Source: Lachnospiraceae bacterium
GTDB taxonomy: Bacteria; Bacillota; Clostridia; Lachnospirales; Lachnospiraceae
Assembly (NCBI GenBank): GCA_017624855.1
Contig: JAGAMF010000005.1
Location: 186,001-250,000, forward strand
Direction: 5' to 3'
Length of the DNA stretch: 64,000 nucleotides
Shown here: positions 1-34,558 of the stretch, in pieces
Numbering within the stretch: position 1 is the first letter of the stretch
How the letters are laid out: each line of letters opens with the position of its first letter
Made by a program: the position numbers and the translations under genes
The notes under the pieces: generated by a model
The model's input: the letters and a program-made list of their open reading frames with translations, nothing else
Told to the model about the DNA's origin: nothing
Database searches by the model: none

Positions 1-741
1 CATCAGACCATGCCTGAGAAAGCATATCTCTACGGACTTCCTCATTCATACTATGATGATTATAAAGTTCGTCGTTACGGTTTCCACGGAACCAGCCATG
101 ATTTCGTATCTGCCCGCGCAGCAGAAATCCTTGGCAAGAAACGTGAAGATGTTAAAATTATCGTTTGCCACTTAGGTAACGGTGCAAGTATCTCTGCCGT
201 AGACCATGGCAAGTGCGTAGATACCAGTATGGGTCTTACTCCCTTGGAAGGTCTTATGATGGGAACCCGTTCCGGTGACATAGATCCCGCTATTGTAGAG
301 TTCCTTGCTAAGAAGTTAGGTAAGACTTTGGAAGAGGTAACCACTATTTTAAATAAAGAATCCGGCGTATACGGTTTGTCCGGCGGCATATCCAGCGACT
401 TCCGTGATTTATCTGCAGCAATGGACGAAGGTAACTTACTTGCTAAGGCTGCTTTGGAAGCATATTCTTACAGAGTGGCTAAGTACATCGGTTCTTATGT
501 GGCTGCCATGAACGGCGTTGACATTATCGCCTTTACCGCAGGTATCGGTGAGAACGACGGTCGCGTTCGCGGTATGGTTGGACAGTACTTCGAATACCTC
601 GGAACATCAATCGATCCCGAGAAGAACAAAGTTCGCGGCGAAGAGTGCATTATCTCTAACCCCGGCGATAAGGTAACCGTTATGGTTGTACCTACCAATG
701 AAGAACTTGCCATTGCAAGAGAGACCGTTAAATTGGTATAA
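1..741 (+). CDS. ackA: Acetate kinase, C-terminal part
   Basis: The last 246 residues of acetate kinase; the start lies before the window. The cytosolic enzyme interconverts acetyl phosphate plus ADP and acetate plus ATP, the ATP-yielding last step of acetate formation. Visible family motifs are RYGFHGTSH, the phosphate-binding CHLGNGASI, GTRSGDIDP and FTAGIGEN near the end. Full-length members have about 400 residues. The frame is open to base 1 with family-like residues before the first Met, so that Met is internal. The usual partner, phosphotransacetylase, would lie upstream outside the window. Structured repeat A begins at the stop codon and a simple hairpin terminator follows. Confidence 0.97.
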   Translation, partial: HQTMPEKAYLYGLPHSYYDDYKVRRYGFHGTSHDFVSARAAEILGKKREDVKIIVCHLGNGASISAVDHGKCVDTSMGLTPLEGLMMGTRSGDIDPAIVEFLAKKLGKTLEEVTTILNKESGVYGLSGGISSDFRDLSAAMDEGNLLAKAALEAYSYRVAKYIGSYVAAMNGVDIIAFTAGIGENDGRVRGMVGQYFEYLGTSIDPEKNKVRGEECIISNPGDKVTVMVVPTNEELAIARETVKLV

Positions 742-895
742 AAATAGGACGCGGTGTGATTTTATCATTTGCCTCAGGGACGCTTTCGCTCGGTTGTGCT
801 ACGCAACGGTACATAGGATTGCAAAGGACGCAATCCAAATACCGGCGAGCACAAACGCCCTTCGGACAAAATGATAAAAATCACACCGCTGTTTT
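741..895 (+). repeat. Structured 3' repeat, copy A
   Basis: Imperfect palindrome starting at the ackA stop codon and on the same strand. The outer helix pairs 751-770 (GCGGTGTGATTTTATCATTT) with 868-889, flanked by an A-run and a T-run so it may also end transcription. Inside lie a TC/TC internal loop, an AGGG/CCCT helix (776-779 with 858-861), the conserved single-stranded block ACGCTTTCGCTCGGTT, then helices GTGCT/AGCAC, CGC/GCG, GGTA/TACC and a terminal hairpin GGATTGC/GCAATCC. The same architecture recurs in copies B, C and D. No protein is supported here. Confidence 0.85.
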
Positions 896-1086
896 TGTGT
901 TAAACGAATAGTAATGTAAATAGAGCCCGAAAATAAGGGCTTTTTTGTATGTATAAATATTGGATGACTTATTAAGTGAATATTAGTATTTTTAACTATT
1001 CATCTTATAACATATGAAAATGCATGTAATAGTGGGCTTGGACGGATTCATATATTGTAAAAATATGAATACAAGGAAAGCACTTT
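742..1086. other. Intergenic region ackA to amidase
   Basis: About 345 bases without a gene. They hold structured repeat A (to about 895), the terminator near 924-946, and an AT-rich stretch upstream of the amidase gene with its AAGGAAAG ribosome site at 1073-1080. I see nothing else. Confidence 0.8.
924..946 (+). terminator. Rho-independent terminator after ackA
   Basis: Short hairpin AGCCC (924-928) with GGGCT (937-941), followed by a run of T. It lies downstream of repeat A, so ackA may have two consecutive transcript-ending structures. Confidence 0.7.
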
Positions 1087-1881
1087 ATGGATAAAAAAAC
1101 CATGTTAAAAGTGGTAATCGTCATGATTGTGGCCATGGCGGTAGCATTGCTGATTCGCGGAATTCTATTACATAGCAAAAATGGGGAGCAGGGGCCGGTT
1201 ACGGCGGAGGAGCTTTCTTTTACCGAAACGGAGTTGGAGCCCAAACCTTACAGTGGCATGATTATCGTAATTGATGCGGGGCACGGTGGAAAGGACCCCG
1301 GCAAAGTAGGAGCAAACGGTACTTTGGAGAAAGATATCAACTTGGAAATTGCCTTGCTTTTAAAAGAGTTGTTGGAAGAAGACGGTGTCACCGTGGTAAT
1401 GACCAGGCAGACCGACACCGGTTTATATGATGAAAACAGCAGTAATAAAAAGATGCAGGATTTAAAAGGACGCCTTGCCATTATCGGAGAAAGTCGGGCG
1501 GATTTGGTAGTAAGCATTCATCAAAACAGTTTTTCGGATGCTTCCGTTTGCGGACCTCAGGTTTTTTATTATGAGGGAAGCAAGCAGGGAGAAAGTGCGG
1601 CAACGCTGGTGCAAAATGCGTTAAATACCGAGTTGGAGATTGCAAAACCCAGAACGCAGAAAAGCAATGACAATTATTTCCTTTTAACGCGATGTTCTCA
1701 AATTATGATTATTGCGGAGTGCGGCTTTTTATCCAATCCCGACGAAGAGAAGTTGCTGAATGACAAAACATACCGGCAGCGTATTGCCGAGGCGCTTCGG
1801 AAGGGTATTTACGAATATCTTGATACCGTAACAGAACCAAAAGAAGGCGGGCAAACCGACCCGGAAGAGCCTATCATATAA
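1087..1881 (+). CDS. N-acetylmuramoyl-L-alanine amidase, CwlD-like
   Basis: Zinc amidase that cleaves the bond between muramic acid and the stem peptide in peptidoglycan. It has 264 residues, with an N-terminal membrane segment (about 6-28), a short linker and an Amidase_3 domain (about 58-245). The expected zinc and catalytic residues are present: H66 in DAGHGG, E81 in TLEKDIN, H145 in SIHQN and E211 in AECGFLSN. Length and the single anchor resemble CwlD, which makes muramic-lactam in spore cortex, and the window carries other spore genes. A vegetative cell-separation amidase is equally possible. The start follows AAGGAAAG at 1073-1080. Confidence 0.88.
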   Translation: MDKKTMLKVVIVMIVAMAVALLIRGILLHSKNGEQGPVTAEELSFTETELEPKPYSGMIIVIDAGHGGKDPGKVGANGTLEKDINLEIALLLKELLEEDGVTVVMTRQTDTGLYDENSSNKKMQDLKGRLAIIGESRADLVVSIHQNSFSDASVCGPQVFYYEGSKQGESAATLVQNALNTELEIAKPRTQKSNDNYFLLTRCSQIMIIAECGFLSNPDEEKLLNDKTYRQRIAEALRKGIYEYLDTVTEPKEGGQTDPEEPII

Positions 1882-1887
1882 AATCCC

Positions 1888-1916
1888 TTGGTATTCCGCG
1901 AAAAATATGTTATGAT
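1888..1916 (+). promoter_or_regulatory. Likely promoter for ywlC operon
   Basis: TTGGTA (1888-1893), 17 bases, TATGAT (1911-1916), about 30 bases before the ywlC start. It fits the housekeeping sigma factor with a weak -35. Confidence 0.5.
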
Positions 1917-1947
1917 AAAATTGATTAAGTAGCGGCAGGAGGTCGGT

Positions 1948-3009
1948 ATGCGTACCGAAGTCATCATTCAGGAGGAAAACAGAATAGACAATACAAGTCT
2001 TACCCGGGCGGGGGATATTATCCGCCGTGGCGGACTGGTGGCTTTTCCTACGGAGACGGTTTACGGCCTCGGCGGAGACGGATTGAACCCGGAATCCTCC
2101 CGCAAAATCTACGAAGCCAAGGGGCGTCCTTCGGATAACCCCTTAATCATACACATATGTAGAATGGAAGATCTGTATTCCATCGTAAAAGAAGTGCCGG
2201 AGAGTGCAAAGAAGCTGGCTGAAGCCTTTTGGCCCGGGCCTTTGACCATGATTCTGCCCAAGGCGGATTGTGTGCCGAAGGAAACCACGGGAGGCCTTGA
2301 TACGGTGGCGGTTAGAATGCCTTCCCACAAGGTGGCCCTTGCTTTTATAAAAGAGGCGGGCGGTTTTGTGGCGGCGCCAAGTGCCAATTTAAGCGGTAAG
2401 CCCAGCCCTACCCTTGCAAAATATGTTGTTGAGGACATGGACGGCAGAATTGATATGATTATTGACGGCGGTGATATTGCCATCGGCCTGGAATCCACCA
2501 TTGTGGATTTAACGGGAGAGGTACCCATGATTTTACGCCCCGGTTATATAACGCTGGAAATGTTGCAGGATGTTTTGGGAGAAGTAACCTGCGATCCCAC
2601 TCTTTTAGATGGGACTTGTACAGACAGGCCTAAGGCTCCCGGAATGCGATATCGCCATTACGCCCCCAAAGGGGACATGCTGATTGTGGAGGGAAGCTCG
2701 GATGCAGTGGTTTCCGCAATCAATAAAATGGTGGCAGAGAGCAAAGCACAAGGCTTAAAAACCGGTGTCATTGCCACTGCGGAAAATGCAGAGAAGTACG
2801 ATGCTGATGTGGTAAAAATTGTGGGCAGCAGGCAGGAAGCCACGGCTGTGGCCGCTTCGCTTTATCGCATTTTGCGTGAGTTTGATGATGAAGAAACGGA
2901 TGCCATCTATTCCGAAAGTTTTGCCACGGACGGAATCGGACAGGCCATTATGAATCGATTATTAAAGGCCGCAGGCCATAAATATAAAAACCTATGGGAG
3001 GATGCTTAA
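1948..3009 (+). CDS. ywlC: Threonylcarbamoyl-AMP synthase (Sua5/YwlC)
   Basis: Makes threonylcarbamoyl-AMP from threonine, bicarbonate and ATP, the first step of the t6A37 modification of ANN-decoding tRNAs. The 353 residues comprise a YrdC/TsaC domain (about 14-200) with PTETVYGLG at 34-42 and KGRPSDNP at 58-65, followed by the Sua5 C-terminal domain (about 210-345). The two-domain form is that of B. subtilis YwlC rather than the short TsaC. The start follows AGGAGG with good spacing. Only one base separates its stop from rpiB, as expected for an operon. Confidence 0.95.
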   Translation: MRTEVIIQEENRIDNTSLTRAGDIIRRGGLVAFPTETVYGLGGDGLNPESSRKIYEAKGRPSDNPLIIHICRMEDLYSIVKEVPESAKKLAEAFWPGPLTMILPKADCVPKETTGGLDTVAVRMPSHKVALAFIKEAGGFVAAPSANLSGKPSPTLAKYVVEDMDGRIDMIIDGGDIAIGLESTIVDLTGEVPMILRPGYITLEMLQDVLGEVTCDPTLLDGTCTDRPKAPGMRYRHYAPKGDMLIVEGSSDAVVSAINKMVAESKAQGLKTGVIATAENAEKYDADVVKIVGSRQEATAVAASLYRILREFDDEETDAIYSESFATDGIGQAIMNRLLKAAGHKYKNLWEDA

Positions 3010-3010
3010 A

Positions 3011-3442
3011 ATGAATATTTCATTAGGATGTGACCACGGCGGTTACGATTTAAAAGAAGCCGTAAAAAAACACTTGGAGGCACAGGGACATACCTGTAAG
3101 GACTTCGGTTGCTATGACAAGAGTTCCTGCGATTATCCCAATCATGGAAGACCTGCTGCAGAAGCGGTAGCCAACGGAGAATGTGATAAGGGTATTGTAA
3201 TCTGCACCACAGGTATCGGTATGTCCATGGTGGCAAATAAGGTAAAAGGTGTTCGTGCGGCACTTTGCTCGGATTCTCTTTCCGCAGAACTTACCAGACA
3301 GCATAACAATGCCAATGTGCTTGTTTTGGGCGCAGGTATCGTGGGTATGAACCTTGCACTTAAAATTGTGGATACTTTTATGAATACGGAGTTTTCCGGA
3401 GACGAAAGACATCAGAGAAGAATTAATTTGATTGAGGATTAA
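3011..3442 (+). CDS. rpiB: Ribose-5-phosphate isomerase B
   Basis: Interconverts ribose 5-phosphate and ribulose 5-phosphate in the non-oxidative pentose phosphate pathway. The 143 residues match RpiB: D8-H9 in CDHGG, catalytic-type Cys65 in ICTTGIGMS, and HNNANVL around 98. I chose the ATG at 3011 because GGGAGG (2996-3001) is well spaced from it, whereas the in-frame ATG at 3002 touches the ribosome site and would overlap ywlC. Some family members act on allose or galactose phosphates; the context gives no hint of that. Confidence 0.95.
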   Translation: MNISLGCDHGGYDLKEAVKKHLEAQGHTCKDFGCYDKSSCDYPNHGRPAAEAVANGECDKGIVICTTGIGMSMVANKVKGVRAALCSDSLSAELTRQHNNANVLVLGAGIVGMNLALKIVDTFMNTEFSGDERHQRRINLIED

Positions 3443-3475
3443 TTATAACCGGTGGGGACCGGATTGGAGGGTTAC

Positions 3476-3955
3476 ATGAAAAGAAAAGATTATATTTCCT
3501 GGGATGAATATTTTGTGGGAATTGCCATGCTTTCCGGCATGCGTTCCAAAGATCCCAATACGCAGGTGGGGGCCTGTATCGTAGGAAGGGACAACCGTAT
3601 TTTATCCGTAGGTTATAACGGATTTCCCAATGGATGTTCGGATGAATTGTTCCCCTGGGCAAGACAGGGCGGTGAGCTGGATACCAAATATGCTTTTGTG
3701 GCTCACAGCGAGTTGAACGCTATTCTGAACTATCGCGGTGGCAACTTGGAGGGAGCGAAGATTTATGTTACATTGTTCCCTTGCAACGAATGCGCCAAGG
3801 CCATTATTCAGGCAGGGATTAAGGAAGTAATCTACGATTCCGATAAATATGAAGGAACACCTTCCAACATTGCCGCAAAGAAAATGTTTGAAGCGGCAGG
3901 TGTAAAATGCGTGCAGTATAAGCGCAGCGGACGCACCATTTCTTTTGAAGTGTAA
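3476..3955 (+). CDS. dCMP deaminase (ComEB-like)
   Basis: Zinc-dependent deoxycytidylate deaminase that converts dCMP to dUMP and so feeds thymidylate synthesis. The 159 residues contain zinc ligand H77 and catalytic E79 (HSELNAIL), and C103 and C106 (PCNEC). The start at 3476 is preceded by GGAGG at 3466-3470; an upstream in-frame start at 3452 would put that site inside the gene. It lies 33 bases after rpiB and is probably co-transcribed. The family also includes ComEB proteins found in competence operons, but no competence genes are near. Confidence 0.93.
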   Translation: MKRKDYISWDEYFVGIAMLSGMRSKDPNTQVGACIVGRDNRILSVGYNGFPNGCSDELFPWARQGGELDTKYAFVAHSELNAILNYRGGNLEGAKIYVTLFPCNECAKAIIQAGIKEVIYDSDKYEGTPSNIAAKKMFEAAGVKCVQYKRSGRTISFEV

Positions 3956-4025
3956 TTTTAGTATTTTTATAAATATAAAACTTTTGCTGAAATATTAAGG
4001 GAAACAACAAAAGGCAGGTATTATT

Positions 4026-5228
4026 TTGAAGAAGAAACGAAGTAAAATTGTTGCTTTTATCCTGGCTGTATGTCTCGTTGTTATAGGGATTCCGCAGATG
4101 GAAGTATATGCTACTTCTACTTTGAACCAGCTTCAGGAAGCGCAGCAGCAGATGCAACAAATGGAACAGGAAAAAGAACAGGTTGACCAGGAGAGGCAAG
4201 AACTTGAGGGTGAACTGGGTGGTTTGAATCAGCAACATGGTTCGCTGAAGGCGGAGCTTGATTCGTTGAATACGGAGCTTGCGGAGGCGGCGGAACATTT
4301 GGCAGAGCTGGAAACGCAGATTGCCGATAAAGAGGATGAAATTACCAAAACCCGGAAAGAGCTGGAAGAAGCCAAGGCTACGGAAGAAGCGCAGTATGAG
4401 GCTATGCAATATCGTATGCAGGCATCGTACGAGAGTCCTGATACGGATTACCTGGAAATGCTTTTGTCGGCCCGCAGTATATCCGAGCTTCTGAATATGG
4501 CGGATTATATCAGCATGCTGGCGGATTATGACAATCGGCTTTTGGTTGAATATCAGGAAGCCAAGGATGCGGTTGCGGCCAAGGAAGTGGTTTTGGAAAC
4601 AGAACTTGCAGAATTGGAAGTTTTAAAACAGGCGAATTTGGACGAACAGGCCAGAATCAATGATTTGATTAAAACAACTTCGGCGTATGTGCAGAAATAT
4701 GCGCAACAAATCTCCACTGCGGAAGCGGAATTGGCTGAAATTGAGGCGGAGATTGCCCGAAAAGAAGCCGAAATAGCGGCCCAGGAAGCGGATATTCAGG
4801 CTTTGCAGAAGAAGTATCAGGAAGAATTGTTAATGTCGCAGTTGGCAAATTCTTCGTCGAAGAGGGATATCTCTCAGGTGACTTTTGAGGAGGGTGACAG
4901 GTATCTTCTTGCCAACTTGATTTATTGTGAAGCCGGCGGAGAGCCTTATGAAGGTCAGGTTGCGGTCGGAGCGGTTGTAATCAATCGTGTGCTGTCCAGT
5001 GTCTATCCCAATACGGTAAGCGGTGTTATTTATCAGAGATCGCAGTTTTCTCCGGTAGCCAGCGGACGACTTGCCTTGGCATTGTCGCAGAATAAGGCGA
5101 CTGCGTCCTGCTATCAGGCGGCGGATGAAGCTATGGCCGGCGTTACCAATGTGGGCGGATGCGTTTATTTCAGAACCCCGATTCCCGGCCTGACAGGCAT
5201 ACAAATCGGCGGACATATTTTTTACTAA
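4026..5228 (+). CDS. Coiled-coil exported SleB-type cell-wall hydrolase
   Basis: Probable secreted peptidoglycan hydrolase. The 400 residues begin with a signal peptide (KKKRSK, hydrophobic core, cut near residue 30), run through a long Q/E-rich coiled coil (about 32-270) like the PcsB regulatory domain, and end in a SleB/Hydrolase_2 domain (about 292-400) with the acidic motif YCEAGGEP and AVGAVVINR. SleB enzymes are lytic transglycosylases acting on spore cortex or vegetative wall. The start is TTG. The N-terminal half is clearly related to the protein at 40035-41273, which carries NlpC/P60 instead. The coiled coil suggests control by a membrane partner such as FtsEX, by inference only. Confidence 0.87.
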   Translation: MKKKRSKIVAFILAVCLVVIGIPQMEVYATSTLNQLQEAQQQMQQMEQEKEQVDQERQELEGELGGLNQQHGSLKAELDSLNTELAEAAEHLAELETQIADKEDEITKTRKELEEAKATEEAQYEAMQYRMQASYESPDTDYLEMLLSARSISELLNMADYISMLADYDNRLLVEYQEAKDAVAAKEVVLETELAELEVLKQANLDEQARINDLIKTTSAYVQKYAQQISTAEAELAEIEAEIARKEAEIAAQEADIQALQKKYQEELLMSQLANSSSKRDISQVTFEEGDRYLLANLIYCEAGGEPYEGQVAVGAVVINRVLSSVYPNTVSGVIYQRSQFSPVASGRLALALSQNKATASCYQAADEAMAGVTNVGGCVYFRTPIPGLTGIQIGGHIFY

Positions 5229-5252
5229 AACAGAATGATTCATGCATATAAA

Positions 5253-5278
5253 AAGGAGCTGTAGATTTACAGCTCCTT
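5253..5278 (-). terminator. Terminator of small reverse gene
   Basis: Hairpin AAGGAGCTGTA (5253-5263) with TACAGCTCCTT (5268-5278). On the reverse strand it is followed by TTTTTATA, so it mainly ends the reverse gene, whose last codons lie inside the hairpin. It may also serve the convergent SleB gene. Confidence 0.75.
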
Positions 5279-5518
5279 ACATTCTTTTATAAAATCAGAA
5301 ACAACTTCGTCATATCTGTCTTCGGGAAGGGCATCCTTGTATAAGTCATAGGGGTAAAACTGCATGCTTTTATCGCCGATGATAATTTCCAAGAGAATGT
5401 CCTGCACATTATCGCCGCCTTTACGGATGTATATATCTGCGTTGGGAATGCGCTCATGGATTTCGGAAAGTAATATGTGTTTAAATTCGTGAAAGTCGCG
5501 AAAGGATGTTTCGTTCAT
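5267..5518 (-). CDS. Small protein of unknown function
   Basis: An 83-residue soluble, acidic protein beginning MNETSFRDFHEFKHIL. I do not recognise the family. It starts at the ATG at 5518 because AAGGAGGAAT lies just upstream; an earlier in-frame ATG has no such site. No signal peptide, membrane segment or cysteine is present. The first third looks helical and the middle like alternating strands (ILLEIIIGDKSMQFYPY). Its opening resembles the start of some short Lachnospiraceae proteins, but this is weak. It has its own terminator. Confidence 0.65.
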   Translation of the reverse strand: MNETSFRDFHEFKHILLSEIHERIPNADIYIRKGGDNVQDILLEIIIGDKSMQFYPYDLYKDALPEDRYDEVVSDFIKECKEL

Positions 5519-5629
5519 AGATTCCTCCTTGTAAATATTAAATTTGTCATGCATATGCGCAAGAGTAGATTATCATATTTTATAAAATTAAAAAAGTGTA
5601 TTTTGGTTTAATCCTTTCGGAACAATATA

Positions 5630-5656
5630 AAAACAGCGGCTCTGAACCGCTGTTTT
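5630..5656 (-). terminator. Terminator of DUF402 gene
   Basis: Hairpin AAAACAGCGG (5630-5639) with CCGCTGTTTT (5647-5656), lying just past the reverse-strand stop at 5659 and followed by T-rich sequence on that strand. Confidence 0.8.
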
Positions 5657-5658
5657 GT

Positions 5659-6138
5659 TTATTTATCGTATTCGTTAATCAAGTCCATATATCGCTTAAA
5701 ATCGCCGCTGTACATGGCGTTTAACAACATATCCGTTCTTACCAGGGCCGAATGTAACTGGTCTTTGGTAATCATATCTTTTATGGATGCCTCAGCCAAT
5801 TCGTCCAAATCAAGAACCTTAACTTTGCCGTCGGGATAGAGAACCACATCGGTAAGCAAATCCGTGGAAGTGCAGGAAGTGCCGTCTGCATCAAATGTGT
5901 AATCCACAATATCGCAATACCAGTATAAAAGAGAATTGTCAGCACGATAAAACTTGCTTACTTTTATACCTTCTTTTAGCATGTAAGCGGAAAATCCGTG
6001 GTCCATGTCCTTACGAGGTTTAATGGTTTGCCATTTGGTAATAATAACGGTATCGTCCCGATAAAGGATAACATCATCTTTCAGATGTACGATTTCGTCG
6101 GGGATCAGTCTTCTGCGATATAAGGTAATGTTTTCCAT
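5659..6138 (-). CDS. DUF402 protein, probable nucleotide phosphatase
   Basis: A 159-residue cytosolic protein of the DUF402 family. Characterised members hydrolyse nucleoside di- or triphosphates with divalent metal. The diagnostic part is the block WYCDIVDYTFDAD (about 89-101), then LLTDVVLYPDGKVKVLD (about 109-125), followed by an acidic helix (DELAEA), which carries the metal ligands in known structures. The N-terminal part (RRRLIPDEIVHLKDD) is also typical. The actual substrate cannot be read from sequence. It stands alone with its own terminator and diverges from the ATP synthase operon. Confidence 0.8.
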   Translation of the reverse strand: MENITLYRRRLIPDEIVHLKDDVILYRDDTVIITKWQTIKPRKDMDHGFSAYMLKEGIKVSKFYRADNSLLYWYCDIVDYTFDADGTSCTSTDLLTDVVLYPDGKVKVLDLDELAEASIKDMITKDQLHSALVRTDMLLNAMYSGDFKRYMDLINEYDK

Positions 6139-6253
6139 AGAAATCCTTTCGATGTGTTATCAATGTGTCTTGTTGTAAAAATAGTACCTTTTAAAAAGAT
6201 AAAAGTCAACGAAAAAACTTTGCAAAAAGTGGCTAAAATACGAAGTTTTTAAC

Positions 6254-6282
6254 TAGACATTGTAGTACAAAATGAGTATAAT
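6254..6282 (+). promoter_or_regulatory. Promoter of ATP synthase operon
   Basis: TAGACA (6254-6259), a 17-base spacer and a perfect TATAAT (6277-6282). Transcription would begin near 6289, which rules out the earliest possible starts of the first gene and supports the ATG at 6323. Confidence 0.75.
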
Positions 6283-6322
6283 TATAAAGATGGTACAAAA
6301 TAGGGAAAGAAGTACTGATTTT

Positions 6323-6568
6323 ATGGCGCCGAGAAAAAGAGATGACAAAGTGAACATGCGTGAAATCATGAAGGTGTTGGTATGCATCTCTCAGTTTAGT
6401 ATTTCCATGCTGGTGCCTATAGCCATGTGTTTCTTCGGCGGTTTGCTGTTGGACAAGTGGCTGGGAACTTCTTATATTGCGATTGTGCTGTTTTTTGTCG
6501 GAGCGATTGCCGGAGGGAGAAATGTGTATCTTTTGGCGAAGAAGTATTCCGGCGAAGGTAAGGAGTAA
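6323..6568 (+). CDS. atpZ: AtpZ/AtpI-like F0 accessory membrane protein
   Basis: An 81-residue membrane protein of the AtpZ (ATPase_gene1) type with two membrane segments (about 20-41 and 47-67). The motif FGGLLLDKWLGTS between them is typical. AtpZ and AtpI together are thought to form an Mg/Ca uptake or c-ring assembly factor for F-type ATP synthases. The start at 6323 follows GGGAAAGAAG and lies downstream of the predicted transcription start. It is the first gene of the atp operon and ends 6 bases before the next. Confidence 0.83.
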   Translation: MAPRKRDDKVNMREIMKVLVCISQFSISMLVPIAMCFFGGLLLDKWLGTSYIAIVLFFVGAIAGGRNVYLLAKKYSGEGKE

Positions 6569-6574
6569 TCAGAT

Positions 6575-7012
6575 TTGAAGAAGCATAATACCACATTGAT
6601 AGAACTGTGGGTGGGGATTGTATTTGTTGCATTGATTTGTCTGCTTGCGGGAATCTGGTTTGTGCAGAATAAGTTAGCCTATGCCTTAGGAATTCTGGTG
6701 GGAGGCATAACTGCAACCTATCTTGCATGGCATATGGCAAGAAGCATTGATAAGATGCTGGATCGGGCAGAAGCCGGCGGAGATGCCGGAGCGGGTATGA
6801 GAGTATCAAGCCTTCTGCGATACGGTATTGTGGTGCTGGTGTTGATTGCTTCGGCAATGGTGTCTGAATGGGTAAATCCAATCAGCGTATTCATCGGTAT
6901 CATTGGTTTGAAAGTGGCGGCATATCTCCAGCCGTTTACTCATAAAATCGTGTTCAAGGTATTTGGGTGGGAAGAAGAAGTCTATCCGGAGATGCCTGAC
7001 ACAGAAGAATAA
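6575..7012 (+). CDS. atpI: ATP synthase subunit I
   Basis: A 145-residue membrane protein with four hydrophobic segments (about 9-27, 33-50, 84-102, 106-124), consistent with ATP synthase protein I, which aids c-ring assembly. The start is TTG at 6575, preceded by AAGGAG; no ATG gives a better fit. It ends 12 bases before atpB. Sequence in this family is poorly conserved, so the call rests on size, topology and position ahead of subunit a. Confidence 0.8.
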   Translation: MKKHNTTLIELWVGIVFVALICLLAGIWFVQNKLAYALGILVGGITATYLAWHMARSIDKMLDRAEAGGDAGAGMRVSSLLRYGIVVLVLIASAMVSEWVNPISVFIGIIGLKVAAYLQPFTHKIVFKVFGWEEEVYPEMPDTEE

Positions 7013-7024
7013 GGAGGTAGAAGT

Positions 7025-7759
7025 ATGGGACAGGGAATCCTGTTATCCGGAGGGGACAACATCGATTTTATGATACATGGTGTGTTCTCTTACAATCTCT
7101 TTGGACAAGAGGTATGGATAACAACATCGCACATATGTCTTTTGATCGTTGTGCTTGTATTGCTTCTCTTTTTCATCATCGGCGGTTCGGTTTTCCGCAA
7201 GGGGAAAACAGTCCCCGCAGGATTTCAGAATTTTGCGGAGTTAATTGTGGAACTCTTGGATGGAATCGTAATCGGTGGCATGGGTGAAAAAGGCAAAGGA
7301 TTCAGAAATTACATTGGCGTGCTTTTTATCTTTATCCTGTTTTGCAATATTTCGGGATTGTTAGGATTGAGACCGCCGACGGCGGATTATGGTGTAACCT
7401 TACCGCTGGGTCTTCTGACTTTTACATTGATTCATGTGAACAAATTCAGATTTAATTCACTCTGGAGTATCTGGAAAGACACATGTTCACCGCTACCGCC
7501 ATGGTTGCCTATTTGGGCGCCGATTAATATTATCGGTGATGTGGCAGTTCCGGTATCGCTGTCTTTGCGTTTGTTCGCCAATGTATTGTCAGGTACCGTA
7601 ATGATGGCATTGGTGTATGGCCTCTTGCAGATGTTTGCAATGGTTTGGCCCGCAGCACTTCATGTCTACTTTGATTTATTTTCAGGAGCAATTCAAACAT
7701 ATGTATTCTGTATGTTAACCATGACATATATCTCAAATGCCATGGGTGGAGAAGAGTAA
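7025..7759 (+). CDS. atpB: ATP synthase F0 subunit a
   Basis: Stator subunit a, which forms the two ion half-channels facing the c ring. The 244 residues have five to six membrane helices. The essential arginine is R182 in SLSLRLFANVLSG, with the family's conserved surroundings. The late helix (FDLFSGAIQTYVFCMLTMTY) is also typical. The start is ATG after AAGGAGG. It lies between subunit I and subunit c, the usual order. Ion choice is best judged from subunit c. Confidence 0.96.
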   Translation: MGQGILLSGGDNIDFMIHGVFSYNLFGQEVWITTSHICLLIVVLVLLLFFIIGGSVFRKGKTVPAGFQNFAELIVELLDGIVIGGMGEKGKGFRNYIGVLFIFILFCNISGLLGLRPPTADYGVTLPLGLLTFTLIHVNKFRFNSLWSIWKDTCSPLPPWLPIWAPINIIGDVAVPVSLSLRLFANVLSGTVMMALVYGLLQMFAMVWPAALHVYFDLFSGAIQTYVFCMLTMTYISNAMGGEE

Positions 7760-7786
7760 AAATTATTTTCTAGGAGGAAGAAAACA

Positions 7787-8062: not shown

Positions 8063-8130
8063 TCGGGTTCGTAAAGTGCAGATGCGTTTTTATGATGAAC
8101 GCGTAGCGAAATAGAAGAGGAGGCAGCAGT

Positions 8131-9233: not shown

Positions 9234-9236
9234 TGA

Positions 9237-10775
<1,539 letters not shown>

Positions 10776-13524: not shown

Positions 13525-13552
13525 GGGTGTAGTTTCGCGCTACACCCTTTTT
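13525..13552 (+). terminator. Terminator of ATP synthase operon
   Basis: Hairpin GGGTGTAG (13525-13532), loop TTTCGCG, CTACACCC (13540-13547), then five T. It lies 10 bases after atpC. Confidence 0.92.
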
Positions 13553-13561: not shown

Positions 13562-13724
13562 GTGAGAGCGACTGTCGAAGTATATCTTTTGATTTCGGAC
13601 ACGCTCCCGCTCGATTCTGACACGTAGCAGTGCTAAATTCAAAGCCTTGTAAACAAGTCTTTTCATTAAGCACTGACGGTCAAAAACGGTCCTTAATCAA
13701 AAGATATGTTCCGGCTGCAATCAC
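13562..13724 (+). repeat. Structured 3' repeat, divergent copy B
   Basis: Begins just after the atp terminator, on the atp strand. The outer helix pairs TATATCTTTTGATT with AATCAAAAGATAT, then a TC/TT internal loop, GGAC/GTCC, the conserved block ACGCTCCCGCTCGATT, and helices TGAC/GTCA, CGT/ACG and AGTGCT/AGCACT around an inner hairpin. Nearly every helix differs in sequence from copies A, C and D, yet pairing, bulges and order are kept. This copy makes the strongest case for selection on structure. Together with the terminator it fills the gap to the next gene. Confidence 0.78.
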
Positions 13725-27779: not shown

Positions 27780-27820
27780 AACGAAGCGACCTGTCAGGCC
27801 GGGAAAGAAAAGGTGAAGAA

Positions 27821-29494
27821 ATGGCAACAGAAGAAACAAGAGACAATGAAGCGGTAGAAGAGGCTTATAACAGAGCGGTGGATGAAATCTATGAGAATAA
27901 TAAACCGGTAAGCAAGGCGGATAAAAAAGCCGCTAAGAAGGCAAAGAAAGAGGGCAATGAAGTGCTCCCCATCGAGGAAGAAGTTGCTTCCGGGGACGAA
28001 AACAAAACATGGACCCAAAAGCATAAAAAGGCTTTAATTATTACCGCGATTGTTCTGGTGGTTTTGATTGCAGGTTGTATCATCGGTTTGATTGCATTTA
28101 ACAATCATTATCAGTCTTTGACTCAGGGCGTTATGCTTTATCAGAGTCAGGGTAAAATGATGCGTGAAAAGCTTATGAAGGATGCGGTTTATTCAGAGCA
28201 GTACAATGCATGGAACTTCAACGAAGAAGGCGAAAATAACGATGCCAATCCTTCAGCGGCAACCACAGACGGTAAATATCTGTACTATGCCGAGAATAAT
28301 AACGGTACATCTTTTGATTTGTACTATTCTAAAATAAAATTCGGCAAGCCTGCCATGATTGCTTCGGCAGTTACGGATTATGAAATTGCCAAGACAGGCG
28401 TTATTTATTATGCGGCTGAAAATGCATTATATTGTTACAATGTAAAAGAGGAAACCGTTACCCATGTTTGTAACGATGTAAATACATTCCGTTTAAACAG
28501 CAAAAAGGATAAGGCACTTTTACTCGGCGGAAGTGATGGTAAGTTAAGTACCATCGAATTGGGCAATGCAGGAAGTCTTGCCACATTGGAAACCGGAGTA
28601 AACTTCATCGAAGAGGCATCGGATGATTTTAAGACCATCGTATACGGCAAGGAAGACGGCTTATACTTTTATAATGCCAAGGACAGCCAGAAAGCGTTGG
28701 TAACCAAGGCTTATACCGAGTGTTATATTTACAATATTGATAAAAAGTGTGAAATCTATTATCTCACCGAAGAAAGAGGCCTCTATTATTTTAAAGAGGG
28801 TGCAAGCGTGAGTGAACTGGTTAGCACAGATGTATGGCAGCTTCACGGGGCGGATGCAAAAGAGGCTATGTTCTTTGCGGCTGTAGGTCCTATTTCCCAG
28901 CAGTGTAATTATAAGTTAATCAACGGCGGCGAAGCCATTGCCATGAAGGATGTTCCGCCTATGGAACTGGGCGATGATGTTTATGTGAATACCTCTGAAA
29001 ATAAGGTATATTTCATCGGCTATGAGAGAGGCAATACCACCGTGGGAACACTGTACGCCATGGGATACCAGCTCCTTGATAAAGGTAAGGTAGAAGTAAA
29101 AGACAACAGTGTGATTTCCATCGAAGATGTATACGGCAAGAAGATGTTTATCTGCAAGGATGCGGGAAATAACAGTGCTGATTTGTATTGTGACGGTGTA
29201 TTGGTGGCAAGAAATATCATTCCCGACAGTCTCAGCATGACGGCTGATGAGAAAGCATATGTGTTTGAATATCAGATCGCCGATGCAAACGGAGATCGCA
29301 AGCTGGCACTTTATGACGGTGCTACCGTAACAGAAGTCGGAAGCTGCGTGGGTTCCGATTATTATGCGGTAACATCAAAAGAGATTTACTTTATGCAGTA
29401 CGGCGTAAGCGGATACAATTATGTGGAGTATAACGGCCGTAAGGTAAAAACCGTTGTAGAACAAGTTCAGGATATTTATTATTTATACTACTAA
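27821..29494 (+). CDS. Single-pass membrane protein with propeller-like outer domain
   Basis: A 557-residue protein with a charged cytosolic N-terminus (Lys/Ala-rich 30-46), one membrane segment (71-93) and a large outer part made of short repeated strand motifs (for example DGKYLYYAENN, NALYCYNVKEE, LYFYNAKDS), consistent with a DUF5050-type beta-propeller. No catalytic motif is visible. Its place after ddl-murF suggests a wall-related sensing or scaffold role, by inference. It resembles in style the 848-residue protein at 15.1 kb but I see no clear homology. Confidence 0.75.
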   Translation: MATEETRDNEAVEEAYNRAVDEIYENNKPVSKADKKAAKKAKKEGNEVLPIEEEVASGDENKTWTQKHKKALIITAIVLVVLIAGCIIGLIAFNNHYQSLTQGVMLYQSQGKMMREKLMKDAVYSEQYNAWNFNEEGENNDANPSAATTDGKYLYYAENNNGTSFDLYYSKIKFGKPAMIASAVTDYEIAKTGVIYYAAENALYCYNVKEETVTHVCNDVNTFRLNSKKDKALLLGGSDGKLSTIELGNAGSLATLETGVNFIEEASDDFKTIVYGKEDGLYFYNAKDSQKALVTKAYTECYIYNIDKKCEIYYLTEERGLYYFKEGASVSELVSTDVWQLHGADAKEAMFFAAVGPISQQCNYKLINGGEAIAMKDVPPMELGDDVYVNTSENKVYFIGYERGNTTVGTLYAMGYQLLDKGKVEVKDNSVISIEDVYGKKMFICKDAGNNSADLYCDGVLVARNIIPDSLSMTADEKAYVFEYQIADANGDRKLALYDGATVTEVGSCVGSDYYAVTSKEIYFMQYGVSGYNYVEYNGRKVKTVVEQVQDIYYLYY

Positions 29495-29576
29495 AATTAT
29501 TTTCATAATTTGTCCCGGCTCATAAAAATGCTCCCGGCACATAAAATAATTACAAAGAAGCAAAAGGCAGCAGAAT

Positions 29577-29984
29577 ATGAAAAAGGTTATTTTATGTCTC
29601 ATTGCAATTATGGCTTTTATGTGTTTTATTGGATGCAACAAAGAAGAAAAACAGCCGGAAAAAGTAAGGGATTTGGAATTTACGGTAGTAGCTACAGCCA
29701 ATATTCCGGAAGAATTGGTTACCATATTGGATGAAAAGAAAACAGATACTTTTTATCAGGCTTATGCCGACGGAGAGTATATGTATCTGTGTGTGGGGTA
29801 CGGCGAACAGGCTACAGGCGGATACAGTATTACCATAAATGAGTTATACCTTACGGAAGAAAATATATGTATGGACACTACACTGGTAGGACCTGCGCCC
29901 GAGGAACGGGTAGCGGACAGTAAGTCTTATCCCTATGTGGTGGTTTGTACGGAATATATTGATTTGCCTGTACTCTTTGAATAA
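29577..29984 (+). CDS. PrcB-like lipoprotein
   Basis: A 135-residue lipoprotein with lipobox MCFIGC (lipid at Cys20). The body matches the PrcB C-terminal domain: YGEQATGGYSITINELYL (about 76-93) followed by PAPEERVADSKSYPYVVV. In Treponema, PrcB stabilises a surface protease complex; in clostridia such short lipoproteins have no known partner. The start follows AAAAGGCAG. It lies between the propeller protein and pyrC and may be read with either. Confidence 0.75.
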   Translation: MKKVILCLIAIMAFMCFIGCNKEEKQPEKVRDLEFTVVATANIPEELVTILDEKKTDTFYQAYADGEYMYLCVGYGEQATGGYSITINELYLTEENICMDTTLVGPAPEERVADSKSYPYVVVCTEYIDLPVLFE

Positions 29985-30025
29985 AGCGGGTGATTTTATC
30001 AAATAAAAGAATACGGAGGATAGCA

Positions 30026-31291
30026 ATGATCGTAATAAAAAACGGTTATGTCATAGATCCCAAAAGCGGATTTGAAGGCTACGCCGATGTGGCTACGGAA
30101 GGCGAGCGCATCATTTCCATCGGAGAAGTAAAAGAAACAGAAGGGGCGGAAGTGATTGATGCCACGGGGCTGATTGTAGCCCCCGGACTTGTGGATGTGC
30201 ACACCCACTTCCGTGATCCCGGATTTGAATACAAAGAAGATATCTATACCGGAGCCAAGGCGGCTGCGGCAGGCGGCTATACCACGGTTATCATGATGTG
30301 CAATACCAAGCCCACCATCGATAACGAAGAAACTCTTGCCTATGTTTTAAATAAGGGCAGGGAAACCGACATTCGCGTGGAAAGTTGCGGTGCGGTAAGT
30401 TTTGGCTTAAAAGGTGAGAAATTAACGGATATGGAGGCTCTGGCTAAGGCGGGTGCCATTGGTTTTACGGACGACGGAATTCCTCTTATGGATGAGGGTA
30501 TTCTTCGAGAAGCTATGTTAAAAACCGCGGTACTTAATATGCCAATCAGTCTTCACGAAGAGGATGCATCCCTGATTACAAACAACGGTGTTAACCGTGG
30601 AAAAGCATCGGAACATTTCGGTATCGGCGGCTCTCCCAGAGATGCGGAAATCAGTCTGATTGCGAGAGATTTAGAGATTGCTTTGGAGACAAATGCCATA
30701 GTGAATGTACAGCATATCAGTACCAAAGAAGGTGTGGAACTGGTACGTAAGGCTAAGGCAGTACCCGGTAACCGTGTACATGCAGAGGCGACACCTCATC
30801 ACATTGCATTGACGGAAGAGGCGGTTATTGCAAAGGGAACTCTTGCCAAGGTAAACCCGCCCATCCGTACTGAAGAGGACCGCCTTGCCATCATAGAAGG
30901 CTTAAAAGACGGTACTATTGACATAATCGCCACTGACCATGCGCCTCATGCAAAAGAAGAGAAGGACAAGCCTTTAACCGAGGCTCCCAGCGGTATGCTG
31001 GGGTTGGAAGCAGCCTTGCCTCTCTGCATTGAAAAGCTGGTAAAAGAGGCCGGAATGTCCATGGCGGAAGTTTTGGACAAGTTAACGGCAAAGCCTGCGG
31101 AAATGTATAACATTGACAGGGGCGAATTGCGGGTAGACGGCCCTGCGGATATCGTGATTTTTAATCCGGATGAGAAGTGGACAGTAACAGGTTTTCAGTC
31201 CAAGTCGCAGAATTCTCCTTTCTTAGGGGAAGAACTGACGGGTAAGGTGAAGTATACGATTTGTAAGGGAAAGGTAGTATACAAGGATTAG
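30026..31291 (+). CDS. pyrC: Dihydroorotase
   Basis: Closes carbamoyl aspartate to dihydroorotate in pyrimidine synthesis. The 421 residues are type I dihydroorotase: the metal motif DVHTHFRDPG (57-66, H59 and H61), further ligands in HEEDASL, ATPHH and the catalytic aspartate in ATDHAPH. The start at 30026 follows ACGGAGGA; an upstream frame start lacks a site. It is followed by pyrK and pyrD, giving the dihydroorotate-to-orotate step. Confidence 0.96.
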   Translation: MIVIKNGYVIDPKSGFEGYADVATEGERIISIGEVKETEGAEVIDATGLIVAPGLVDVHTHFRDPGFEYKEDIYTGAKAAAAGGYTTVIMMCNTKPTIDNEETLAYVLNKGRETDIRVESCGAVSFGLKGEKLTDMEALAKAGAIGFTDDGIPLMDEGILREAMLKTAVLNMPISLHEEDASLITNNGVNRGKASEHFGIGGSPRDAEISLIARDLEIALETNAIVNVQHISTKEGVELVRKAKAVPGNRVHAEATPHHIALTEEAVIAKGTLAKVNPPIRTEEDRLAIIEGLKDGTIDIIATDHAPHAKEEKDKPLTEAPSGMLGLEAALPLCIEKLVKEAGMSMAEVLDKLTAKPAEMYNIDRGELRVDGPADIVIFNPDEKWTVTGFQSKSQNSPFLGEELTGKVKYTICKGKVVYKD

Positions 31292-31341
31292 GAAGGATAT
31301 CGGAGAATACCTTTTGGAATATATGGAACGGAGGGAAAAGT

Positions 31342-32118
31342 ATGTTTTATCGTAAAAAAGAAACCGCTAAGGTTTATAGTCAGACTGAAATCGCGGAAGG
31401 TATTTATGATTGCCTGATTGAAACAGAGGCAGCGGTCCATGCAAATGCGGGACAGTTTATCGGAATATATCCCAAGGATAAGTCGCATCTTCTGGTGCGC
31501 CCTATCAGTATCTGTGATGTGGACAGAGAGAATAAAAGAATGCGTCTTGTGTACCGTGTGGCAGGTGAGGGAACCAAGGAATTTGCCACCTACAAGGCAG
31601 AAGATACCATGGAGATTCTTGCTAACTTAGGTAATGGTTTCCCCGTGGAAGAAGCAGAAGGAAAGACGGTTGTTCTTATGGGCGGAGGTATCGGTATTCC
31701 GCCTATGTTAGGGCTTGCTAAGGCATTGAATGCGGACAAGCATATTTTCTTGGGATACCGTGATCAATATAACTTCCTTGCGGATGATTTTATGCCCTAC
31801 GGTAATGTGTATATTGCGACGGAAGACGGTAGCGTAGGTTGCAAGGGCAATGTTTTGACGGCTTTGGGTACAACCACAATTAAGCCTGACATCATTATGG
31901 CGTGCGGTCCTATGCCCATGCTTCGCGCAATTAAAAGATATGCGGAAGAGAATAACATTACCGCATATATTTCTTTGGAAGAAAGAATGGCTTGCGGTGT
32001 TGGTGCCTGCCTTGGCTGTGTGTGCAAAACCACCAAGAAAGATCATCATTCGCATGTAAACAATACAAGAATCTGTACGGAAGGTCCCGTATTTGATGCT
32101 AGGGAGGTGGATATCTAA
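31342..32118 (+). CDS. pyrK: Dihydroorotate dehydrogenase electron-transfer subunit
   Basis: Passes electrons from the pyrD FMN to NAD through FAD and a [2Fe-2S] cluster. The 258 residues have an FAD domain (RPISICDV, about 53-60), an NAD domain (GGGIGIPPMLGL, about 114-125) and the cluster ligands C218, C223, C226 and C245. It overlaps the pyrD start by one base. It follows ACGGAGGG. The subunit defines the class 1B, NAD-linked enzyme. Confidence 0.95.
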   Translation: MFYRKKETAKVYSQTEIAEGIYDCLIETEAAVHANAGQFIGIYPKDKSHLLVRPISICDVDRENKRMRLVYRVAGEGTKEFATYKAEDTMEILANLGNGFPVEEAEGKTVVLMGGGIGIPPMLGLAKALNADKHIFLGYRDQYNFLADDFMPYGNVYIATEDGSVGCKGNVLTALGTTTIKPDIIMACGPMPMLRAIKRYAEENNITAYISLEERMACGVGACLGCVCKTTKKDHHSHVNNTRICTEGPVFDAREVDI

Positions 32119-33020
32119 TGAATACTCAGGTTACCATTGCAGGTGTTACTTTTAAAAATCCCGTTATGACTGCGTCCGGTACTTTTGGCTCCGGTATGGA
32201 ATACAGTCAGTTTGTGGACTTGAATAAATTAGGTGCCATTGTGACCAAAGGCGTTGCCAATGTGCCTTGGCCCGGCAATCCTACCCCCCGTGTGGCAGAA
32301 ACTTACGGCGGTATGTTAAATGCCATCGGCTTGCAGAATCCCGGCGTGGATGTTTTTATCGAAAGAGATTTGGAGTTCTTAAAAAGATATGATACTCCGG
32401 TGATCGTAAATGTTTGCGGTAAAACCGTAGAGGACTATTTAGAGACTGTAGAACGCTTAAACGAAACAGACGTAGCTATGATGGAAATCAATGTTTCCTG
32501 CCCCAATGTAAAAGAAGGTGCCATTGCTTTTGGTCAGAAGGCGGATGCTTTGTTTGACATTACATCCAAGATTAAAAGTGTGGCTAAAAAGCCTGTTATC
32601 ATGAAGTTAAGTCCCAATGTTACCGACATTACCGAAATGGCTAAGGCAGCAGAGGCAGCAGGCGCGGATGCGATTTCTTTAATCAATACCATTACCGGTA
32701 TGAAAATTGATGTAAACAGAAGACAGTTCGTATTGGCAAATAAAACCGGCGGATTGTCAGGCCCTGCCATTAAACCCGTTGCGGTTCGTATGGTTTATCA
32801 GTGTGCCAATGCAGTGAATATTCCCATCATCGGTATGGGTGGTATTGCAACTGCGGAAGATGCATTGGAATTCATTATGGCAGGCGCTACAGCTGTGTCT
32901 GTGGGTGCCATGAATTTTATGAATCCTTATACAACCGTTGAAGTTGTGGAAGGCATTGAAGGATATATGCTTAAGAATAAGATTTCGGATATCAAGGAAC
33001 TTATCGGTTGCGTGAAGTAA
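32118..33020 (+). CDS. pyrD: Dihydroorotate dehydrogenase catalytic subunit, class 1B
   Basis: Oxidises dihydroorotate to orotate with FMN. The 300 residues form a TIM barrel: VMTASGTFGSG (about 14-24), the active-site block EINVSCPNVKEG (with the class 1 catalytic Cys), the FMN block SLINTITGM, and IIGMGGIATAEDALEFIMAGA (about 235-255). It is coupled to pyrK by a one-base overlap. Structured repeat C begins 5 bases after its stop. Confidence 0.96.
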   Translation: MNTQVTIAGVTFKNPVMTASGTFGSGMEYSQFVDLNKLGAIVTKGVANVPWPGNPTPRVAETYGGMLNAIGLQNPGVDVFIERDLEFLKRYDTPVIVNVCGKTVEDYLETVERLNETDVAMMEINVSCPNVKEGAIAFGQKADALFDITSKIKSVAKKPVIMKLSPNVTDITEMAKAAEAAGADAISLINTITGMKIDVNRRQFVLANKTGGLSGPAIKPVAVRMVYQCANAVNIPIIGMGGIATAEDALEFIMAGATAVSVGAMNFMNPYTTVEVVEGIEGYMLKNKISDIKELIGCVK

Positions 33021-33025
33021 GATGC

Positions 33026-33199
33026 GTGCCGCGGCTCTATATGGCGAGAAGATAATCAATCGTTCTCAGGGACGTTCTCACTTGGTTGTGCTACGCAGCG
33101 GTACCTAAGACGGCAAAAGACGCCGTCTAAGTACCGGCGAGCACAAACACCCTTCGAACGAATAGATTATTTCTTCGCGCGGTAAAGAGCTCGCGGCAC
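33026..33199 (+). repeat. Structured 3' repeat, copy C
   Basis: Starts 6 bases after pyrD on the same strand. The outer helix of about 40 pairs joins GTGCCGCG...GAAGATAATC...GTTC to GAAC...GATTATTTCTTC...CGCGGCAC. Inside are TC/TC, AGGG/CCCT, the block ACGTTCTCACTTGGTT, GTGCT/AGCAC, CGC/GCG, GGTACC/AGTACC and the tip hairpin AGACGGC/GCCGTCT with loop AAAAGAC. TTTTTT follows the base at about 33205. It shares core sequence with A and D but not the outer helix. Confidence 0.85.
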
Positions 33200-33234
33200 T
33201 TGTGATTTTTTAAGTGTGTGGGAGATTGTGAGTT

Positions 33235-33828
33235 ATGAATATTGCAGTTTTTGCGTCGCATGGCGGAAGTGATATGCAGGCAATTATTGATGGTTGCAAA
33301 TATAATAAAATTGATGCGAAAGTTGCTGTTGTGATTAGTAATAACAGAGAGTCTATGGCATTGCAGAGGGCGGCGAATGAAGGTATTCCCGCTTATCATT
33401 TAAGTGCAAAAAAATTTGGAAGTGAAGATGTGTTGGCACAGGAAATTATGAAAGTCTTGAGCCGATATGATATCGATATGATTTTCTTGGCTGGTTATAT
33501 GCGTATGTTGCATATATCAATATTGGAGAAGTATCATAATCGTATTTTTAATATTCATCCTGCGTTGTTGCCGAAATTTGGCGGTAAAGGTATGTATGGG
33601 ATAAATGTACATACAGCAGTAATTGAAGCACAGGAAAAGGAGACGGGAGTTACCATTCACAGAGTGAATGCGGAGTATGACAGTGGTGAGATTATTGCGC
33701 AGACAACGGTACCTGTTTTAGAAGGTGATACGCCGGAAATTCTTGCGGCGAGAGTTTTAGAGCGCGAGCATGCGTTTTTAGTGGAAGTAATTGCAGATAT
33801 AGCAAACGGCAAAATTATTTTAGGCTAA
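33235..33828 (+). CDS. purN: Phosphoribosylglycinamide formyltransferase
   Basis: Transfers formyl from 10-formyl-THF to GAR in purine synthesis. The 197 residues show FASHGGSDMQAII (about 6-18), the catalytic FNIHPALLPKFGG (about 104-116) with Asn-His, the following HR region in TGVTIHRVNAEYDSGEI and the Asp. It stands alone rather than in a pur operon. It lies between two structured repeats in opposite orientation, with an AT-richer codon use than pyrD. Confidence 0.93.
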   Translation: MNIAVFASHGGSDMQAIIDGCKYNKIDAKVAVVISNNRESMALQRAANEGIPAYHLSAKKFGSEDVLAQEIMKVLSRYDIDMIFLAGYMRMLHISILEKYHNRIFNIHPALLPKFGGKGMYGINVHTAVIEAQEKETGVTIHRVNAEYDSGEIIAQTTVPVLEGDTPEILAARVLEREHAFLVEVIADIANGKIILG

Positions 33829-33839
33829 AAGGAGCACCT

Positions 33840-34316
33840 ATGAACAACTTTACAATCAGACAAGCAAATATAAATGATGTATCAACCATCCTTTCTTTCA
33901 TCAAAGCCTTGGCAGAATACGAAGATATGTCCGACCAAGTGGTGGCGACAGAGGAACTCTTACAAGAGTGGCTGTTTGAAAAGAAAAAGGCACAAGTGCT
34001 CCTTGCCATGGAAGGAGATGTGGCAGTAGGTTTTGCACTGTACTTTTATAATTTCTCTACATTTCTCGGTCGCGCCGGAATCTATTTGGAAGACTTATTC
34101 GTAAAAGAAGAATATCGTGGCAAAGGATATGGTAAGGCACTCTTAAAAGAACTTGCCCGCATTGCGGTAGAAGAAGGGTGCGGTCGTCTGGAATGGTGTT
34201 GTCTTGATTGGAATCAGCCGAGCATTGACTTTTATTTATCTCTTGGTGCAGTGCCCATGGATGAGTGGACGCAGTATCGCGTTACGGGAGAGACATTGAA
34301 AGCGTTAGCGAAGTGA
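33840..34316 (+). CDS. GNAT N-acetyltransferase, diamine/thialysine-type
   Basis: A 158-residue acetyl-CoA transferase. The CoA-binding block is YLEDLFVKEEYRGKGYGKALL (about 82-102) with the R/Q-x-x-G-x-G pattern YRGKGYG. The motif LEWCCLDWNQPSIDFY is characteristic of spermidine/thialysine acetyltransferases, so a small amine is the likely substrate. The start follows AAGGAGC, 11 bases after purN, so the two are likely co-transcribed. Confidence 0.82.
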   Translation: MNNFTIRQANINDVSTILSFIKALAEYEDMSDQVVATEELLQEWLFEKKKAQVLLAMEGDVAVGFALYFYNFSTFLGRAGIYLEDLFVKEEYRGKGYGKALLKELARIAVEEGCGRLEWCCLDWNQPSIDFYLSLGAVPMDEWTQYRVTGETLKALAK

Positions 34317-34418
34317 TGATAGATTATAGTGAAAGCCAACAATTTTAACTATTGGCAAGCGACAGCTATCGATTTTAGAGAAATGAAGCAGTATTAATAT
34401 ATTATATTAAAACCGAAT

Positions 34419-34558
34419 GGACCGGGAGTGAATAAATTAGTTCGAAGGGTGTTTGTACTCGTCGGCATTTGGGTTGCGTTCTTTGCAACCCTATGTGCCG
34501 TTACGTAGTACAACCAAGCGAAAGCGTCCCTGAGAACAATTTATTTCACTCTCGGTCC
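34419..34558 (-). repeat. Structured 3' repeat, copy D (reverse)
   Basis: On the reverse strand, starting 17 bases after the sipL stop. The outer helix pairs GGACCGAGAGTGAAATAAATT... with its complement to GGTCC. Inside are TC/TC, AGGG/CCCT, the block ACGCTTTCGCTTGGTT, GTACT/AGTAC, CGT/ACG, GGCA/TGCC and the tip GGGTTGC/GCAACCC with loop AAAGAAC. Compared with copies A and C, GTACT/AGTAC, CGT/ACG and GGCA/TGCC are all paired changes. Confidence 0.85.

Follow-up and report, generated by a model that had tools for sequence, protein, structure and literature searches.

Probable mobile DNA palindromes with a conserved structured tip in Lachnospiraceae

A 64,000-nucleotide stretch of a Lachnospiraceae bacterium genome (GenBank assembly GCA_017624855.1, contig JAGAMF010000005.1, positions 186,001 to 250,000 of the forward strand; hereafter the window) contains four copies of a repeated element with long complementary arms and a conserved tip. 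Copies A (741-895), B (13562-13724) and C (33026-33199) are on the + strand behind ackA, atpC and pyrD, and copy D (34419-34558) is on the - strand behind sipL. On balance, we read these elements as non-autonomous palindromes of mobile DNA that resemble miniature inverted-repeat transposable elements (MITEs), the tip probably being a DNA-hairpin signal for a trans-acting factor. The element is multicopy, and in relatives of the window's genome its recent copies have defined inverted-repeat ends and target-site duplications. Ends and duplication lengths vary with the lineage, and arms with both lineage and locus, yet one tip is shared by all. A preliminary description had taken the four copies for structured RNA elements at the 3' ends of genes; in relatives they proved to be a mobile repeat with identical or nearly identical recent copies, which argues against that reading.

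Signs of recent mobility come from four genomes. G195, G104 and G217 carry copies with equal or nearly equal scores under the covariance model described below, and the identity of recent copies is 91-99.6% in G195 and 89-97% in G217. In G217 and G124 the full element is ~208 bp long with ends TAGGnnATTGCGAAACTC, and tens of such ends are present per genome. The full element of G195 is ~270 bp long with ends GGTTCGGGTGTC, and G104 has different ends again (GTAAC-GTTCAGCC). Exact target-site duplications of 9-13 bp flank 9 of 21 G217/G124 elements and none of 3982 mismatched flank pairs. In G195 the duplications are 6-9 bp long and were found in 6/6 copies, whereas none of 18 mismatched pairs gave more than 5 bp. 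The median element length is ~205 bp (n=93). Like bacterial MITEs, the elements of these relatives are short and non-coding, have long terminal inverted repeats, target-site duplications and near-identical recent copies, and are mostly intergenic. They differ from MITEs in that one structured tip is found across differing ends and duplication lengths and in that the whole element folds. A parent insertion sequence is the one tested MITE feature that was not found, at the places and among the transposase families examined.

Minimum-energy folds consist of an outer helix, a two-by-two loop, a four-pair helix, a mini-hairpin, further helices and a tip hairpin, with a completeness that varies among copies. 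The conserved tip of ~98 nt comprises a short helix, the mini-hairpin GC-TYTC-GC (two base pairs; absent from the predicted fold of copy C), a bulged helix and a terminal hairpin. Its bulges, one bulged A and one two-base bulge, are on the 5' side of the helix only. A covariance model (R1) was built from an alignment of 28 cores that come from four genomes in a single genus and include copies A, C and D; its E-values are rough, and searches of more than 40 genomes used stricter filters, which lose weak matches. On the window the model scored cores A, B, C and D at 107, 58, 112 and 116 bits, and the four copies were confirmed in the positions, strands and common architecture first described for them. 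Over ~98 nt, copy A shares 87% identity with copy D and 83% with copy C. Copy B represents a second subfamily (GGAC/GTCC helix, longer tip) and was recovered although it lies outside the training set, so the window's genome holds both subfamily I (copies A, C and D) and subfamily II (copy B). In G217, tips of both subfamilies are seen by eye on the same arms. The shared arms within G217 and the presence of both subfamilies in the window's genome indicate that arms and ends follow the host lineage while the tip follows the subfamily.

Covariation among copies had been reported from the four copies in the window, and in larger alignments it is far beyond chance. In the 28-sequence alignment 94.6% of 951 cells are paired, and only 32-38% remain so when partner columns are slid by 1-3. 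Double-sided changes occur in 123 cells, compared with 39.8 in shuffles, and in 23 pairs, compared with 13.1. Among 108 distinct sequences from genome contigs, 934 double-change cells were counted against 283 in shuffles, with the caveat that this alignment was fitted to the model and came from a pattern search, both of which bias it towards the structure. In the pattern-selected set the median pairwise identity is 0.69 for cores (0.57 shuffled) and 0.57 for arms (0.53 shuffled), and the complementarity between an element's own two arms is 0.80; the tip is thus conserved in sequence and the arms are not.

A tip that is read by a protein would be constrained in sequence, and the arms would need only to pair. 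We suggest that mobility would depend on a common trans-acting protein that recognises the tip in the form of a DNA hairpin or cruciform, and that the arms may be kept complementary partly by template switching, in which one arm is rewritten from the other. The latter step is supported at one locus. At the sipL site the first 21 nt of the G000 5' arm (the window's genome), compared without gaps, are identical to the complemented 3' arm of G015 at 21/21 positions and to the orthologous G015 5' arm at only 14/21. The G015 5' arm matches the G006 and G009 5' arms at 17/21 each and complements its own 3' arm at just 14/21. The contrast is smaller when gaps are allowed, the G015 5' arm then matching those of G000, G006 and G009 at 20/25, 20/25 and 20/24. 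Evidently one arm at this locus served as the template for the other, the outcome expected of template switching, and the ungapped comparison slightly favours the reading as mobile palindromes.

Orthologous sites show that old copies both persist and decay. Sister species also carry elements at the ackA, pyrD and sipL sites. At the pyrD site G006 and G015 carry the element with other arms and G009 has none. The sipL site contains the element in G009, G015 and G006, where the G006 copy kept its arms and lost most of its core. At the atpC site a degenerate remnant of copy B was found in G009 and at most a trace in G006. Some old copies have been deleted or degraded in place.

The strongest competing explanation, possible but clearly less likely in our judgement, is that these are ordinary MITEs in which lines with different ends share an inner segment by common descent or through recombination, the tip being without function and its pairing maintained by template-switch repair of quasi-palindromes. 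The terminal repeats and target-site duplications fit it, as do the arm copying at sipL and the scarcity of single-sided intermediates (6 single-sided standard-pair changes against 123 double-sided ones in the 28-sequence alignment). Template switching is also described, for RNA genes, as producing multibase compensatory changes in stems (PMC8794818). Such correction accounts for the paired arms; it does not explain why unpaired letters and one-sided bulges recur in the tip. Palindrome correction should remove the bulges, yet both they and the unpaired letters recur across genera in model-found matches, with a caveat that the model leans to its training letters. The same tip also stands on arms with quite different ends.

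A more specific form of the reading as mobile palindromes is a transposition system that reads the folded tip and not the terminal sequence, its recombinase cutting at the foot of any stem that carries the tip. With such a recombinase the arms would be free to change while pairing, and one tip would come to stand on elements with unrelated ends. We regard this as speculative and rather unlikely. At two loci, L159 (G124) and L166 (G217), the terminal hairpin of the tip contains long extra sequence, which indicates that the tip loop tolerates insertions; L159 holds further palindromes. GGACG/CTGT was considered as a general foot motif and rejected, being found near the foot in just 7 and 9 of 93 elements (1 and 1 when scrambled). 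By eye, four of the six G195 elements (L133, L134, L136, L137) sit at the edge of a second palindrome, of the GAAAGTC..GACTTTC type, as if hairpins or terminators were preferred targets. An element of G006 (L032) is apparently nested in the loop of a palindrome with the same AGGACGC..GCTGTTTTT foot, again as judged by eye.

Whether the fold is one of DNA or RNA was examined through mismatched cells. G-U cells should be in large excess if an RNA is encoded on the given strand, and A-C cells if it is encoded on the opposite strand; neither excess was seen, which points to folded DNA. G-U and A-C account for 10 and 24 of 951 cells in the 28-sequence alignment, for 25 (0.8%) and 63 (2.0%) of 3117 cells among model-found matches (12 of whose 90 sources were fetched by an end-repeat pattern), and for 59 (1.7%) and 54 (1.5%) of 3501 cells among pattern-found loci, so that G-U nowhere outnumbers A-C by more than a few cells. 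A single position pair yields 12 of the 24 A-C cells in the first set and 22 of the 63 in the second. The signal recognition particle (SRP) RNA, a hairpin RNA of the same size from the same bacterial family, served as a control in 30 of 57 matching genomes, replacing a transfer RNA control that gave only 2 usable tRNAs. It shows 20.9% G-U and 0.4% A-C cells, and 79 single-sided against 122 double changes, where the 28-sequence alignment has 6 against 123. Set against it, neither the model-found nor the pattern-found matches show the wobble-intermediate covariation expected of a structured cis-acting RNA. Statistically, the pairing of the tip is kept strictly Watson-Crick, as expected if a DNA strand folds rather than a transcript. 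Covariation had first been taken as a sign of selection on a folded single strand, and that much stands; selection on an RNA does not, since G-U is rare in comparison with SRP RNA.

The position of the copies relative to genes also differs between the window and the wider set. The preliminary description placed every copy directly behind a gene and on the strand of that gene. This is so for 4/4 copies in the window and for 23/30 copies in the four-genome clade, 16 of the 23 having 27-58 nt between gene and core (orthologous loci are counted separately in the 30, and genes in both sets are rough open reading frame (ORF) calls). It does not extend to the wider set of 107 matches, obtained from 100 pattern-found stretches that gave 111 matches, four of which were cut at contig ends and dropped. 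There, 44 matches agree in strand with their 5' neighbour gene and 46 oppose it, 8 have no neighbour and 9 fall inside predicted ORFs. This set is not entirely separate from the window's clade, L223 (108 bits) being probably a close relative. Nor was a replication-strand bias seen, with the GC-skew leading strand holding 53 matches and the other 48. Because copies of the wider set are oriented at random to genes, a role in 3' untranslated regions is unsupported there; within the window's clade, a local insertion preference or some 3' role may exist.

It is therefore improbable that the element is a structured RNA (a transcribed 3' element, a terminator or a small RNA) whose fold is selected in the transcript. 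Strong covariation and the 23 clade copies behind same-strand genes are what such an RNA would give. The element's G-U and A-C frequencies (0.8-1.7% and 1.5-2.5%) are far from those of the SRP RNA, gene orientation is random in the wider set, and the tip has been lost in place in relatives. No Rfam family matches any element at its gathering score either, in line with the initial failure to place it in a known RNA class. At E<=10 the only overlap is a chance-level one of flavi_FSE with copy D (18.5 bits against a cut-off of 43; E 3.1). The sole gathering-score Rfam match in the window is a DUF3800-XI RNA (RF02975; 64 bits) at 61843-61890 on the - strand.

Searches for a mobilising enzyme were made among transposase families and neighbouring genes. 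Y1 transposase genes were found in 8/22 genomes with the element and 15/24 genomes without it, and genomes rich in the element, such as G006, G009, G195, G104 and G124, gave no Y1_Tnp match. DDE_Tnp_1 was found in 0/4 genomes and ISL3 in 0/8. The neighbour scan covered 110 of 157 neighbour ORFs, and no transposase is among the 25 of 187 neighbour families listed. The 15 largest neighbour ORF clusters listed are mostly orthologous loci, with ABC-type ATPases at seven loci. No autonomous form or transposase-bearing pair of G217/G124 ends was noticed at the places examined. A gene inserted in the tip was considered as an autonomous form and not found among the pattern loci that lack a near 3' half; these show instead other tips, gene-free insertions or deletions.

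Neighbouring copies tend to point tail to tail. Among pairs less than 450 bp apart, 11/12 are tail to tail whatever the gene orientation, compared with 10/15 of pairs farther apart; the count comprises the 107 matches plus 26 from 13 loci chosen because they hold two matches, and orthologous loci repeat in it. In three sister species (G009, G006 twice, and G015; L014, L017, L021 and L028) a + and a - copy enclose lipoprotein-like genes, none of which reaches the cut-off of any Pfam family. Judged by eye, G009 and G015 apparently carry different cassette variants at one conserved locus, as if exchanged.

Repetitive extragenic palindromic (REP) sequences, their hairpin-forming doublets (REPINs) and the associated tyrosine transposases (RAYTs) resemble the present system in their folded palindromes outside genes, inverted pairs and heterogeneous stems. 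That a Y1 (RAYT or IS200-like) transposase moves the element in single-stranded form, as a REP-like repeat, is nevertheless very unlikely. It would fit a folded hairpin with one-sided bulges and the tail-to-tail close pairs, and many REP families typically form inverted dimers (PMC3733652). However, Y1 genes are commoner in genomes without the element and were not found in the high-copy ones, there is no replication-strand bias, target-site duplications are present, and at ~200 bp with a conserved multi-helix tip the element is far larger than REPs of 20-40 bp. REPs carry an unpaired GTAG or CGTC tag; the second of these was counted here, as GGACG (complement CGTCC), and is near the left foot in only 7/93 elements.

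Integron attC sites have variable stems and extrahelical bases and are recognised in folded single-stranded form, and an attC-like recombination site, with hairpins flanking exchangeable gene cassettes such as the lipoprotein-like genes and variant cassettes of the sister species, is just as hard to credit, because the copies are inverted and not direct around the gene, most matches have no second match nearby in the locus, and the copies are dispersed with no cassette array. The bcr1 repeats of the Bacillus cereus group are ~150-nt intergenic mobile repeats with conserved secondary structure. The present element is likened to them by general description only, and its host group is different.

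Several observations weigh against the reading as mobile palindromes with a protein-read tip. No trans-acting gene was found among the three transposase families tried (Y1, DDE_Tnp_1 and ISL3). The window's own copies have no clean target-site duplication, and 12/21 G217/G124 elements show none. The close position of 23/30 clade copies behind a same-strand gene fits a 3' role, and a T run follows the helix of copy A, so that transcription termination is possible there. A-C cells outnumber G-U cells in the 28-sequence alignment and among model-found matches, a weak lean towards a fold of the opposite strand that is far below the SRP level and counts only slightly. The pattern-found loci were selected by a DNA pattern, so that the letters of that pattern are conserved in them by this choice and part of the conservation seen there stems from it. 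The rarity of mismatches could also stem from template switching alone, with no protein reading the tip.

The surroundings of the four copies are as follows. The neighbour genes first named were confirmed, ackA, atpC and pyrD by NCBIfam and SipL by Pfam. The window contains the C-terminal part of ackA, with the gene start upstream of the window edge. Copy A has its core at 770-867 and arms at ~751-769 and 868-889, and its orthologues are in G006 and G015. The core of copy B is at 13591-13698. Directly 5' of copy B, at 13525-13552 (+), is a terminator-like hairpin of atpC (GGGTGTAG..CTACACCC and a T run), conserved in G006 and G009. Copies C (core 33062-33159) and D (core 34440-34537) are tail to tail.

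Further homologues occur across the bacterial family, as covariance searches of the window's genome and of others in the family revealed. With R1, 15 copies were detected in the window's genome, and three sister species hold 36, 35 and 46; BLAST likewise found additional copies elsewhere in the window's genome. In the genus, 27/31 genomes contain a match at E<=1e-3, many beyond the top four holding one to few weak matches. In the bacterial family the figure is 117/397 genomes at E<=1e-4. An even sample of the class yielded matches in 10/391 genomes, all ten within the same family and none outside it; at least six same-family genomes in this sample have no match.

A pattern scan of genome contigs matched at least 118 stretches. 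Among the 80 listed, 61, among them the cultured isolate Brotaphodocola catenula CLA-AA-H274, are named Lachnospiraceae or bear the names of genera that we place there, and 11 have wider or other Clostridia-type names. The remaining eight are named Gastranaerophilales, Muribaculum or Muribaculaceae, all come from one NALB metagenome series, and are taken to be misnamed assemblies. Two pattern scans of viral contigs matched 0 and then 2 contigs, and copy D used as a query in distant mode had no match among phage and plasmid records. Within this sampling the element is confined to one bacterial family, which from the names on the contigs is taken to be Lachnospiraceae.

No description of this repeat was found in a literature search of titles and abstract openings, and a table in PMC2267715 names no Lachnospiraceae. 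Common gut bacteria thus carry, across a whole family and in numbers that reach tens per genome, a mobile repeat that lies outside every Rfam family. It also illustrates that covariation of a textbook kind need not be evidence for RNA, and that the balance of G-U and A-C cells separates structure at the DNA level from structure at the RNA level. Should the tip prove to be a recognition signal, the enzyme still to be found would be a novel factor that reads DNA hairpins.

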